This document shows positions 28,120 to 33,502 of a stretch of DNA of 64,000 bases, in pieces (the stretch's first letter is position 1; each line of letters starts with the position of its first letter). Below the pieces are notes generated by a model, which saw only the letters and a program-made list of their open reading frames with translations, was not told the DNA's origin and did no database searches. This DNA is from Candidatus Bathyarchaeota archaeon (GTDB lineage Archaea; Thermoproteota; Bathyarchaeia; 40CM-2-53-6). Position numbers and translations under genes: made by a program. Where the stretch lies: NCBI GenBank assembly GCA_005888755.1, contig VBBQ01000027.1, forward strand, positions 1 through 64,000, written 5' to 3'.

Positions 28120-29322
28120 CTAACTTATCGGTGGATAGGTTAGCTTCGGGGCATCGACTCCAGGGATTACCGTAGGCGTCGGGTTCCCCTTCACAGCTTC
28201 AACTGCTCCGCCTTGCGCCTCATTGATTGGAGGCCGGGAACGTGCGAACCTCACCCGTCCCCGCCGAGCCAGGTTTATCGCTGCTACCCTGTCCCGGTCC
28301 ATCACCATTCTGCACTTTTCACACCAGAGCTTGCGTTCCAGTCTCTTATCCCCTTGGAGTCTCTCCCCGCATCTCGGACAAGTCAGACTGGACCCTCTGG
28401 TCTCACGCTTAGACAAACGGATTACCGGAAGGCCTGTCCATCGGGCCTTGTACTCTATCTGCTTCTGAGCTTGACTGAAAGACCATGCGTTCATCTTATC
28501 CCTGTGTTTTCTGCCCTGCCAGTTGCCTCTACGGTAGAGACTTCGTATTCCTCGAATATCTTCGAGGACGATTGCTTCTCTACGCTCAACAGCCTTTGCG
28601 ACTATTGTCTTCGTGGTGTTATGGAGTATCTGGCTAGTTCTGTCCCTCCTCCGCTCTCCATACTTGGAGGAGACCAGACGCCGAAGACGAGCATCATCCC
28701 GTTTGAAAGAGGCCACAATGCGCCCTGTGGTTCTGACAATTCTCACGGTTTCTGAAAGGTCGTAGCAGGATACCCACTCGTCGTTGCCCGCTGTGAGATT
28801 ACGAAGATTACGGTCCACGCCCACTGTATGGATGCATTCTATCTCCGGAGGTTCACGAGCGATACTGAGACTCAGGCTGTGAGGGGTAAGCGTGAAGGAA
28901 CGGACTGTGACGCCCGTTTGGGAGATAACCGCCAGGGTATGGTTGGTCAAGGGTATTCTGAAACGTTTCCTTCTCGATACTGGAATACGCAAAGACCTGT
29001 TCTCTATTTTGAAACCGTAGCAGGAGATGAGCTGTGGTTTGACGGAGTACGGGGTCTTGGAAGCGTAGCCTCTACGGATAGACTTTTTCCTAGCCGCAAG
29101 TATTCCTGCTGCTCTGCTTATAGCGCAGAGCTTGTAGTAGCTGGGTGAATCGTAACGAGATAATTGGCTGTAGGCGAGCAGCGAGAGTCCTCTGAGAGAG
29201 CTAGTATCGTTGGTGAGACCTTTCCGTATCGAGTCGTTCACCATGCTCCGGAAAACATCCAGCAACCCTAGAAGACATTCTGGTGGAGCAAAGTTCTGCC
29301 GGACAGATTTTACAGCGAACAC
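28120..29322 (-). CDS. tnpB: TnpB, RNA-guided nuclease of an IS605/IS1341-type element
   Basis: A 400-residue intact TnpB. The RuvC residues are all visible: D in VGVDRNLRNL (about 190), E in IVLEDIRGI and D in MDRDRVAAINLA. The zinc finger CPRCG...CEKCR lies between the second and third. TnpB proteins are ancestors of Cas12 and cut DNA using an omega RNA made from the 3' end of their own element. No tnpA transposase is adjacent, so this is a tnpB-only element, immobile by itself. It lies between aMBF1 and the PUA/NAC operon. GTG start at 29322. Confidence 0.93.
   Translation of the reverse strand: MFAVKSVRQNFAPPECLLGLLDVFRSMVNDSIRKGLTNDTSSLRGLSLLAYSQLSRYDSPSYYKLCAISRAAGILAARKKSIRRGYASKTPYSVKPQLISCYGFKIENRSLRIPVSRRKRFRIPLTNHTLAVISQTGVTVRSFTLTPHSLSLSIAREPPEIECIHTVGVDRNLRNLTAGNDEWVSCYDLSETVRIVRTTGRIVASFKRDDARLRRLVSSKYGERRRDRTSQILHNTTKTIVAKAVERREAIVLEDIRGIRSLYRRGNWQGRKHRDKMNAWSFSQAQKQIEYKARWTGLPVIRLSKRETRGSSLTCPRCGERLQGDKRLERKLWCEKCRMVMDRDRVAAINLARRGRVRFARSRPPINEAQGGAVEAVKGNPTPTVIPGVDAPKLTYPPIS
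28152..28330 (-). ncRNA. candidate omega RNA at the tnpB 3' end
   Basis: In IS605-type elements the guide RNA covers the end of tnpB and stops at the element's right end, with the guide read from the flank. Here 28152-28205 is almost identical to the relic at 9211-9264 and both matches end at the same base, minus-strand ...GGAGT(C/T)GATG. If that is the right end, the guide would begin at 28151 and read CCCCGAAGCTAACCTATC. The 5' limit of the RNA is not determined. Confidence 0.4.
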
Positions 29323-30825: not shown

Positions 30826-32367
30826 TTGCGGATAGTCGAATGTGTTCCCAACTTCAGTGAAGGCCGGAGGAAAGAGGTCATCGAATCGATTGCTGACGCC
30901 ATTCGAAAGACGCCTGGGGTAACGCTCCTCGATGTGGAATCCAACTCTGATCACAACAGGTCCGTGATAAGCTTCGTCGGCGAGCCGGGGCCCGTGAAGG
31001 ACGCTGCTCTAGCTGCTAGCCAAAAGGCGATTGAGCTGATCGACCTGAGACATCACAAGGGAGAGCATCCAAGAATGGGCGCGGTCGATGTTGTTCCTTT
31101 CGTGCCGTTGTCCGGCGTAACCATTGACGACTGCGTTTCGCTAGCCCGTTCTTTCGGGCAAGAGTTTGCCGAGAAATTTCACGTGCCTGTTTTCCTCTAT
31201 GAGGAAGCAGCGACTACCGCAGAAAGACGGAACCTCGCTGACGTCCGTGAAGGAGAGTTTGAAGGCCTCCAAGACAAGATTGGCAAGGACCCGGCGAAGA
31301 AGCCGGACTTTGGTCCCGAGAAGATCCATCCCACTGCAGGCGCGACGGCTGTTGGAGCCCGAGAGATTCTGATAGCCTACAACGTAAACCTTGGGACAAG
31401 TGATCTAAACATCGCGAAGAAGATCGCCCACCAACTGCGAGCAAAAGATGGCGGGCTCTCGTTCGTAAAGGCGCTCGGGTTCGAGCTGAAGGAGCGCGGA
31501 ATAGTTCAGGTGTCGATGAACCTGACGAACTATCGCAAGAGCCAGTTGTTCAAGGCATACGAGCTGGTCAAGCTCTTCGCTGATCGCTACGGCGTCCCAG
31601 TCGTAGGGAGCGAGGTGGTGGGGCTCGCACCTATGGATTCCCTCGTCGACTCAGCAGAGTTCTACTTGCGACTGGAGAACTTTAGCCGAGACCAAGTCCT
31701 AGAGAGGAAACTCTTCGCTCCTACGCCTTCAACACTGACCGACCAGAGCCTGGCAATGTTCAGCGAGGAAGTCGCGTCCAAAAAGGCCACCCCGGGGGGC
31801 GGAAGTGTCTCCGCATACATGGGAGCACTCGCCGCAGGACTTCTCTGCATGGTCGCCCGGATAACGCTGGGAAAGAAGGATCCCCCGCCCAGTGCAGAAA
31901 AACTCAACGAGGTGGTGAAGGAGGGTGAGGCTCTTCGCCAGAAACTTCTACGCCTTGTAGTGGAGGACACTGAAGCCTTTGACCTGGTGATGAAAGCGTT
32001 CAAGCTCCCGAAGGACCAGCCTGAGACTCGGAAGAAGGCGATAGAAGAAGCAACCATCAAAGCATCTGAGATACCACTCTCAACACTCAACTGCTCAGTC
32101 AAAGTTCTAAGACTGGCTCACGAGGTCGCAGAGAAAGGGTCCACGAATGCATTGTCGGATGTCGTCACCGCTGTCTCTTCGGCGCGTGCGGCCGTTGAAG
32201 GGGCCGCAAGCAATGTCTTGATCAACCTTGCAAGTCTTAGCGATCAAAAGTACGTGGAGAACATCTCAAGACAGGTCTCTGATCTTCGAAAGGAAGCTGC
32301 TCAGCTTGAGGAACGGGCTGGAAAGCTTGTCGAGTCTAGAATTAGGAATCCTAGGATTCCAGCCTGA
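30826..32367 (+). CDS. ftcD: fused glutamate formimidoyltransferase / formimino-THF cyclodeaminase
   Basis: A 513-residue bifunctional protein. Residues 1 to about 300 are the formiminotransferase (ECVPNFSEGRRKEVIESIAD, VESNSDHNRSVISF, catalytic-type His at 81 in GEHPRMGAVDVVPF). Residues from about 315 are the cyclodeaminase (FSEEVASKKATPGGGSVSAY, MGALAAGLLCMVARIT). Together they transfer the formimino group of histidine breakdown to tetrahydrofolate and release ammonia, giving methenyl-THF. The fusion matches the mammalian and some archaeal arrangement. TTG start at 30826. No hut genes are adjacent. The 3' end overlaps the convergent HxlR gene by 17 bp. Confidence 0.94.
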   Translation: MRIVECVPNFSEGRRKEVIESIADAIRKTPGVTLLDVESNSDHNRSVISFVGEPGPVKDAALAASQKAIELIDLRHHKGEHPRMGAVDVVPFVPLSGVTIDDCVSLARSFGQEFAEKFHVPVFLYEEAATTAERRNLADVREGEFEGLQDKIGKDPAKKPDFGPEKIHPTAGATAVGAREILIAYNVNLGTSDLNIAKKIAHQLRAKDGGLSFVKALGFELKERGIVQVSMNLTNYRKSQLFKAYELVKLFADRYGVPVVGSEVVGLAPMDSLVDSAEFYLRLENFSRDQVLERKLFAPTPSTLTDQSLAMFSEEVASKKATPGGGSVSAYMGALAAGLLCMVARITLGKKDPPPSAEKLNEVVKEGEALRQKLLRLVVEDTEAFDLVMKAFKLPKDQPETRKKAIEEATIKASEIPLSTLNCSVKVLRLAHEVAEKGSTNALSDVVTAVSSARAAVEGAASNVLINLASLSDQKYVENISRQVSDLRKEAAQLEERAGKLVESRIRNPRIPA

Positions 32368-32704
32368 CAAGCCCTCCCATCTTGTCAGCCCAGACCATCA
32401 ACGGAGCCACAAGGATTGTAAGCTCTCTACCCTCACTCGTTAGATGATACTCGACGCGCGGCGGTATCTCGCGGAACGCCTCCCGCTCGATGAGGCCGGT
32501 TCGCTGAAGGTCTTTGAGAACCTCGGCGAGTGTCTTGGCGCTTATTCCTTTGAGCCGCCCTTGTAATTGATTGAACCTCATGGTTCCATTGTTGCCAAGT
32601 TGGGCAAGCAAGCAAAGTGTCCACTTCTTACCTACGATATCGATGAGCCCTTTGCAGGGACAGGGACAAACACAGCATGGTTCTCCTTCTACTAGCCTAA
32701 CCAT
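32351..32704 (-). CDS. HxlR-family regulator with a cysteine-rich N-terminus
   Basis: A 117-residue HxlR/MarR-like winged-helix protein: LIDIVGKKWTLCLLAQLGNN, then MRFNQLQGRLKGISAKTLAE, VLKDLQRTGLIERE and the wing EIPPRVEYHLTSEGREL. The N-terminus is unusual, with five Cys in eight residues (PCCVCPCPCKG, C10-C17); ordinary HxlR proteins have one or two. That density suggests metal or thiol sensing. It is divergent from a 20-residue Cys-rich peptide gene, with paired GTTAC repeats between. Start ATG at 32704. Confidence 0.92.
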   Translation of the reverse strand: MVRLVEGEPCCVCPCPCKGLIDIVGKKWTLCLLAQLGNNGTMRFNQLQGRLKGISAKTLAEVLKDLQRTGLIEREAFREIPPRVEYHLTSEGRELTILVAPLMVWADKMGGLVRLES

Positions 32705-32707
32705 AGG

Positions 32708-32770
32708 GTTACCAAGTTACGTACCAGAAACTTGATTGCTTAAATACTTTGTAATAGTAACTAACGTTAC
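32708..32770. promoter_or_regulatory. divergent HxlR / Cys-peptide promoter with two GTTAC operator pairs
   Basis: A central TATA-like CTTAAATAC (about 32739-32747) can serve both directions. On the HxlR side lie two direct GTTAC copies (32708-32712 and 32716-32720), near the expected start point. On the other side lies a perfect inverted repeat AGTAAC-TAAC-GTTACT (32756-32771), near the expected start of the peptide transcript. The same pentamer on both flanks points to one regulator controlling both genes. Confidence 0.6.
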
Positions 32771-32787
32771 TTACAGAGGTGAAGTAT

Positions 32788-32850
32788 TTGGACGATTGCT
32801 GCCCGTGTTGTTGCGGATGTTGCGGGCCAACTGCTAAGGGAACGCCTTAG
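32788..32850 (+). CDS. 20-residue cysteine-rich micro-peptide (7 Cys)
   Basis: From TTG at 32788 to TAG at 32848-32850 the reading is MDDCCPCCCGCCGPTAKGTP: seven Cys in nine residues apart from one Pro and one Gly. A strong ribosome binding site, GAGGTGA (32776-32782), sits 5 bases before the TTG; an in-frame GTG at 32779 would add three residues but lacks such a site. A T-rich stretch follows at 32885. Too short for ordinary gene finders. The composition suggests metal or metalloid binding, and the divergent HxlR regulator has a similar Cys cluster. No family is known to me. Confidence 0.5.
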   Translation: MDDCCPCCCGCCGPTAKGTP

Positions 32851-32879: not shown

Positions 32880-32893
32880 TTCCCTTTTTTCCT
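32880..32893 (+). terminator. T-rich tract after the Cys-peptide gene
   Basis: A pyrimidine run TTCCCTTTTTTCC (about 32880-32892) lies 30 bp after the peptide stop. Archaeal transcription commonly ends at such T-tracts without a hairpin. It would give a short transcript of about 120 nt. Confidence 0.35.
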
Positions 32894-33043
32894 CTGAAAC
32901 TGGCTCTCAAGGGTCGGATACGCCGAGAAAGACCGAACCGTAGCCTCCTTTGAGAGAACGGATTCGGAAATTCTACTTTCTCTCTGGATAGTAGCGAGTG
33001 AAAAACGACCTCGACAAGGTAAGACTCGGCCGATACTCACTTG

Positions 33044-33502
33044 ATGTCTGTTACTCGCCTTCTTCGAAAATTGAACCTTCGACCACGAACAAGTCCAGGG
33101 TCATTTGCATACTGTGATGCTCAGTCGGGTTCACATCTTCTGTTCCGATGGGATGGGTCTGGATTGACGAAATCAGATGAGATTGTGCTCTTCGAAGAAG
33201 AAGGGCCTGGGTTTCAGCCGCTTCACATTCAAGGTCACCTAACGCGAGTTTTATTCATGATTCGGTCGGGTGATGTGATCGCAAAACTCGTTTGGGTAGT
33301 TCCTGAAGCTCGATGTCGCGATCTTGACAAGATCGTCTTTTCGTGGGTTCGAATGTGGGAAGCCGCGTTCGGTGGCAGATTTCCTCCGATCGAGTACAGG
33401 AGTGAGAACGGCTCATATCTTGGGTCCTTGGGAACGAGCCAGAATGCAAGACACCATTCAGGACCACCATTAGCGAAGTCTGTTGACTTCGAAGAGCTAT
33501 GA
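33044..33502 (+). CDS. hypothetical protein
   Basis: A 152-residue soluble protein with no family I can name. It reads as a compact mixed alpha/beta domain (SHLLFRWDGSGLTKSDEIVL, LTRVLFMIRSGDVIAKLVWV) and a less ordered C-terminus. The ATG at 33044 follows an in-frame TTG at 33041. It ends 9 bp from a convergent methyltransferase gene. Codon use looks like that of its neighbours, which supports it being real. Confidence 0.55.
   Translation: MSVTRLLRKLNLRPRTSPGSFAYCDAQSGSHLLFRWDGSGLTKSDEIVLFEEEGPGFQPLHIQGHLTRVLFMIRSGDVIAKLVWVVPEARCRDLDKIVFSWVRMWEAAFGGRFPPIEYRSENGSYLGSLGTSQNARHHSGPPLAKSVDFEEL

Follow-up and report, generated by a model that had tools for sequence, protein, structure and literature searches.

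A putative metal/thiol stress module built from an HxlR-family regulator and a divergent Cys-rich micro-gene in soil Bathyarchaeota

A short Cys-rich frame beside an HxlR gene

Can a frame of only 20 residues, seven of them cysteine, be a gene, and if so, what would it do next to a divergently transcribed HxlR-family regulator? Such a frame lies in the window, by which we mean the whole 64,000-nucleotide stretch analyzed here; it comes from a 2.01-Mb MAG closely related to soil Candidatus Bathyarchaeota. A sequence-only reading had described the frame, its GAGGTGA ribosome binding site, and its divergence from the HxlR gene, all of which we find as described, and had taken the pair for a small metal- or thiol-responsive unit. 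The elements of the locus are as follows.

32351–32704, minus strand: HxlR-family regulator, 117 aa, with an N-terminal CCVCPCPC cluster (Pfam PF01638)
32707–32720: putative operator at the HxlR start site, GGTTACCAAGTTAC (GTAAC NNN GTTAC in many relatives)
32740–32749: shared TATA-like box, TTAAATACTT, other strand AAGTATTTAA, from the 16-locus alignment
32757–32770: putative operator at the peptide start site, GTAACTAACGTTAC, that is, GTAAC TAAC GTTAC
32776–32784, plus strand: ribosome binding site of the peptide gene, GAGGTGAAG (contains GAGGTGA)
32788–32850, plus strand: peptide gene, TTG start, MDDCCPCCCGCCGPTAKGTP, stop TAG
32885–32890, plus strand: T-run TTTTTT, the presumed transcription terminator of the peptide gene

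The frame on the plus strand translates to LDDCCPCCCGCCGPTAKGTP, which has no aromatic residue and whose cysteines follow the pattern DDCCPCCCGCCG. Cys makes up about one-third of the peptide, and its length is below the reach of the usual gene finders. None of the other short frames in the window that follow a ribosome site (n = 250) has more than four Cys, and a single frame in 60 Markov-shuffled windows reached seven.

Conservation of the peptide in the Bathyarchaeota family

Sixteen loci are readable, namely the window and 15 further genomes of the family that include the region upstream of the HxlR orthologue. All 16 carry a Cys-rich frame of 17–35 residues with 6–8 Cys behind the same ribosome site, which reads AGGTGAAG or GGGTGAAG throughout. 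The sequence-only reading had suggested searching related genomes for just such a frame and had staked the unit on conservation of the Cys codons and ribosome site beside HxlR; both are conserved. Examples from the family, with the first codon taken as Met, are MGCCCCGCCGPGCCTSEQPTGKPEKD, MSCCCCGPGCGCGGSMERTRETETKETA, MGCCDCCSGGCGCGCCGPLNQQQASRET, and MDGCECPCGCGCCGPGF. The start codon differs among relatives (ATG, TTG, GTG, and once perhaps CTG), and the Cys spacing drifts over the family as a whole. Among six close copies, codons 1–14, which form the Cys part, vary only synonymously, and the tails diverge. Pooling the 19 family peptides gives 26% Cys, 20% Gly, and a single His and a single Phe overall; large hydrophobic residues, like His and aromatic ones, are almost absent.

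One genome (G017) has a damaged HxlR remnant with a stop and yielded no peptide either. In the genus and family, 20 HxlR-like paralogues were also inspected, none of which (0/20) has a divergent Cys-rich frame. An additional peptide in G008 lies at a contig end, so that its regulator is out of view, and the contig of G009 stops within the regulator. Two genomes, G005 and G011, have two tandem peptide copies each. Because of the conservation of the frame, a chance origin is untenable, and the 20-residue frame is genuinely a gene, conserved in soil Bathyarchaeota.

The second tandem copies (L111, 3019–3118, and L112, 2504–2603, in coordinates of the locus oriented with the peptide on the plus strand) keep the ribosome site and frame and have no TATA box. 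It looks as though a cassette of peptide and cluster c7 had landed in the promoter of the older copy. The c7 protein, encoded in the window at 33041–33502 (plus strand), has 153 aa and no Pfam match; five genomes of the genus have it alongside the peptide or a remnant of the peptide locus, and it seems to travel with the first peptide type as a cassette.

No metal gene adjoins the locus within the soil Bathyarchaeota family. P1B-type metal ATPases are encoded elsewhere in 17 of 18 genomes of the genus (above cut-off), a presence that does not discriminate because nearly all control genomes have them too.

Promoter with putative operators and terminator

The intergenic stretch is 78–83 nt long and aligns nearly gap-free across the 16 loci. 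The TATA core is invariant and lies 39–40 positions from the regulator start in 15 loci; in the one exception the regulator is extended upstream. GTTAC stands to the left and GTAAC to the right of the TATA box, at near-fixed distances in most loci, and the GTTAC repeats that had been noted on both sides of a shared TATA-like box are confirmed in the window at 32707–32720 and 32757–32770. The arms of the putative peptide-side operator are kept in most, not all, relatives, with the right-hand arm degraded in several. An archaeal TATA box usually lies about 25 nt from the start site; at this spacing, the left repeat would overlap the start site of the regulator and the right repeat that of the peptide. 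Repeats at both start sites are where a repressor would sit, and from this placement we infer repression by HxlR.

In the whole genome, TAAATACTT-N6-8-GTAAC is present a single time, which suggests a regulator dedicated to this locus. A larger regulon was considered and rejected: GTAAC-N3/4-GTTAC is found at three places in the genome, no more than a reversed control pattern, and the two other sites (C12:44468, within the window, and C42:11941) give no evidence of further targets.

Behind the stop codon, a run of at least five T occurs within 85 nt in 13 of the 16 loci, compared with a mean of 1.9 and a maximum of 5 loci in shuffles. The transcript is therefore probably short and monocistronic. 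A search of Rfam returned no known RNA element at the locus.

Cysteines of the regulator

The regulator matches PF01638 at 2.3e-24 (score 85.5, cut-off 20.8), and its profile matches the solved structures of HxlR, YodB, and QsrR; the NCBIfam models RrpA and RrpB fall below cut-off. Orthologues within the family are 72–79% identical. Five Cys had been counted within residues 10–17, and they are found at residues 10, 11, 13, 15, and 17. The claim that this cluster is unusual for HxlR proteins holds for three of them: Cys10, Cys11, and Cys17 are the only additions particular to the Bathyarchaeota family, whereas Cys15 aligns with Cys11 of Bacillus subtilis HxlR, the usual family cysteine, and Cys13 is invariant together with Cys15 in 24 aligned archaeal relatives.

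The protein thus resembles the HxlR/DUF24 thiol sensors YodB, QsrR, and B. subtilis HxlR (PMC7835342) in its winged-helix fold, as judged by profile, and in the conserved N-terminal Cys before helix 1 (Cys15), but differs from them in the extra Cys13 and three further Cys. In B. subtilis HxlR, the formaldehyde partner is Lys13 (PMC7835342), two residues past the sensing Cys. This position is Cys17 in the window regulator, so crosslink chemistry of the Lys13 type is unavailable, which rules out formaldehyde sensing in the manner of B. subtilis HxlR.

CxC-HxlR loci elsewhere in archaea

Outside the family, archaeal regulators sharing the Cys13/Cys15 pair (CxC) often have one of two kinds of divergent neighbor. 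We considered the best 80 matches listed, which are not an unbiased sample. Among these, 23 of 54 archaeal loci have a divergent small Cys or Cys/His protein preceded by a ribosome site, against a shuffled expectation of 0.4, and none of the 26 bacterial loci does; the 23 include L055, where the small protein is Rdx and not a Cys-rich peptide. Many of these small proteins start MCxxC. Their sources are other Bathyarchaeia, Methanoregula, Methanolobus, Archaeoglobus, Methanoperedens, Asgard archaea, and Thermoplasmatota. Several (L018, L020, L044, L050, L051, L056, L070, and others) share with the window locus the regulator family, the divergent placement, and a Cys-rich protein start, but most of these MCxxC or Cys/His microproteins contain His or end in a helical part, and they cannot be aligned with the window peptide.

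CxC regulators are also divergent from recognizable metal genes: mercuric reductase at L047 and L094 (TIGR02053 above cut-off), Acr3 at L057, a heavy-metal P-type ATPase at L063, and CopD proteins at some loci, with ArsB further along at L076. At L074 there is a heavy-metal P-type ATPase too, but the regulator is without the CxC pair. Together, the Cys-protein and metal-gene neighbors of CxC regulators support metal or thiol sensing independently of composition. In the regulator tree, the peptide-bearing Bathyarchaeota family groups apart from the other archaeal sequences; the tree is based on few columns, its deeper forks are unresolved, and its neighbor labels were assigned by hand.

From these comparisons we propose, tentatively, that a CxC-HxlR with a divergent Cys-rich microprotein could be an archaea-wide and largely unannotated metal/thiol stress module, spread over Bathyarchaeia, Asgard archaea, methanogens, Archaeoglobus, and Thermoplasmatota, in which the microprotein is freely replaced or reinvented. 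The soil Bathyarchaeota version would then be one cut down to a thiolate peptide of 17–35 residues, among the shortest metallothionein-like proteins known.

Three other arrangements were seen in this set. At L040, L044, L048, L061, and L072 (methanogens and another bathyarchaeon), an ABC transporter ATPase (DrrA-like in L044) comes after the Cys-rich small protein beside HxlR, mostly with another co-oriented gene behind the ATPase; these loci are possibly efflux operons with a metal or thiol trigger. Haloarchaeal mercuric reductase genes are divergent from CxC-HxlR at L080, L094, L097, L099, and L104 (an NCBIfam call for L094; the other four are judged from the similarity of their starts), making this regulator a candidate mercury regulator other than MerR. 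Rdx/SelW-like small proteins are directly divergent from CxC-HxlR at L055, L057, L059, and L065 (L057 by Pfam), followed in L057 and L065 by an arsenite-exporter-like gene.

Discussion

What, then, does the pair do? We think it probable, with moderate confidence, that the locus is a two-gene stress module in which an HxlR sensor controls a divergent, monocistronic, metallothionein-like micro-gene that is derepressed by soft metal. At rest, HxlR would occupy the GTAAC/GTTAC sites over both start sites, flanking the one TATA box, and keep both genes repressed. A soft metal, whether Cu(I), Zn(II), Cd(II), Hg(II), or As(III), would bind at the CxC/CCxCPCPC cluster and release the regulator; alternatively, a thiol-reactive compound could act at the same cluster. 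The peptide would then be made in quantity from a transcript of about 120 nt and would chelate the ions in a thiolate cluster. Of the metal- or thiol-responsive unit originally suggested, the pairing of small gene and HxlR and the shared promoter are supported by the 16 loci, the co-loss, the tandem copies, the T-runs, and the synonymous-only variation. The metal or thiol part is a deduction that now has support beyond composition, because relatives with the CxC pair adjoin MerA, Acr3, ArsB, heavy-metal P-type ATPase, and CopD.

Searches of Pfam, NCBIfam, PDB sequences, and Rfam with the peptides came back without a match. No profile or sequence of the known metallothionein families in Pfam, NCBIfam, or PDB sequences matches them, and membership in a known metallothionein or zinc-finger family was rejected for lack of a profile match. 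A Pfam match of one relative to the coronavirus spike tail (E 0.03, below cut-off) reflects composition only. The traits of the metallothionein class are nevertheless present: the peptide is very small, 7 of its 20 residues are Cys (the class has about 30%), and aromatic residues and His are almost absent. We therefore regard it as probably metallothionein-like in functional class, and claim no membership in a known metallothionein family.

The closest likeness is to the copper metallothioneins of Neurospora crassa and Agaricus bisporus (PDB 1T2Y; PMC4755600, PMC13107397), which are likewise small stand-alone thiolate peptides, with about 25 residues, 7 Cys, much Gly, and almost no His or aromatics. 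The fungal pattern, X2-CXC-X5-CXC-X3-CXC-X2-C-X3 (PMC4755600), is not that of the window peptide: fungal peptides have three spaced CxC pairs, whereas those of the family have CC, CCC, and CPC runs. The archaeal peptides further differ in having no detectable homology to the fungal ones, in a length of 17–20 residues for the shortest members, and in their HxlR sensor partner. Among metals, copper(I) is our first guess by analogy, because the fungal 7-Cys, Cys-only peptides are copper thioneins and because all Cys of a CCC run are able to join in Cu(I) binding (PMC4755600, PMC13107397). The Haloferax volcanii zinc-finger micro-proteins, which carry two C(P)XCG motifs and many of which were shown to bind zinc (PMC11241148), are also archaeal, small, and Cys-rich, but the window peptide has by inspection one CxCG only and no CPxCG, is shorter, and is without the residues for a folded core.

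The main rival explanation, which we consider unlikely, is that HxlR senses electrophiles, quinones, or disulfide stress with the peptide serving as a sacrificial thiol sink or redox buffer instead of a metal store. Characterized HxlR proteins do sense electrophile and redox compounds (PMC7835342), and by profile the regulator is nearest to such sensors (YodB, QsrR, and HxlR, with RrpA/RrpB below cut-off). Glutaredoxin-like and Rdx proteins adjoin some distant relatives, and an aldo/keto reductase lies downstream of the peptide in one subclade. However, the reductase apparently has its own start region past the T-run and is missing there in most of the family, the Mer, Ars, P-type ATPase, and CopD neighbors of CxC regulators point to metals, and CC/CxC spacing together with Gly and Pro is a usual trait of metal-thiolate peptides.

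It is improbable that the peptide acts as a feedback partner of HxlR, binding the regulator or passing metal to or from its Cys cluster with no bulk buffering. Strict pairing, co-loss, and the parallel Cys enrichment of both partners in the family would fit such a role, but the drift of peptide sequence and Cys spacing next to a well-conserved HxlR is unlike a specific interface, and two genomes carry a second peptide copy.

Poly-Cys leaders of mycobacteria are attenuators that respond to Cys-tRNA supply, and a Cys-packed frame this short, close to a transcript's 5′ end, recalls them. This explanation is very improbable here and largely refuted: the gene downstream of the peptide is not conserved, differing among genomes and convergent in several, so that there is no conserved co-oriented gene to attenuate, T-runs follow the stop in most loci, and Rfam gives no match. 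A chance open frame within a conserved promoter region, for which the varying start codon and the very small size might speak, is ruled out for practical purposes by the shuffles, the Cys-rich frame at every readable locus, the synonymous-only Cys part, the conserved ribosome site, the tandem copies, and the co-loss.

In the proposed metal-responsive module, the metal/thiol sensor would be HxlR and the metallothionein-like effector a peptide of extreme shortness; we found no description of an archaeal HxlR-microprotein pair in the literature searched, which leaves most subscription journals outside. If the proposal is true, archaea have a widespread metal/thiol defense with effector genes that tend to escape standard annotation because of their shortness, under a regulator family not known for metal sensing in that literature. 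The divergent side of any CxC-HxlR gene could then be searched as a handle for microprotein discovery. The metallothionein-like peptides would be at or under the length of the shortest fungal ones and could be used for testing how few residues hold a metal-thiolate cluster.

Another feature of the window lies away from this locus. At 28120–29322 (minus strand) there is a gene for a TnpB/Cas12f-like transposon protein of 400 aa (Pfam Cas12f1-like_TNB, 1.4e-15), with a helix-turn-helix gene on one side and a PUA-like gene on the other; it looks inserted, because in G009 (L127) the two flanking genes adjoin without it.
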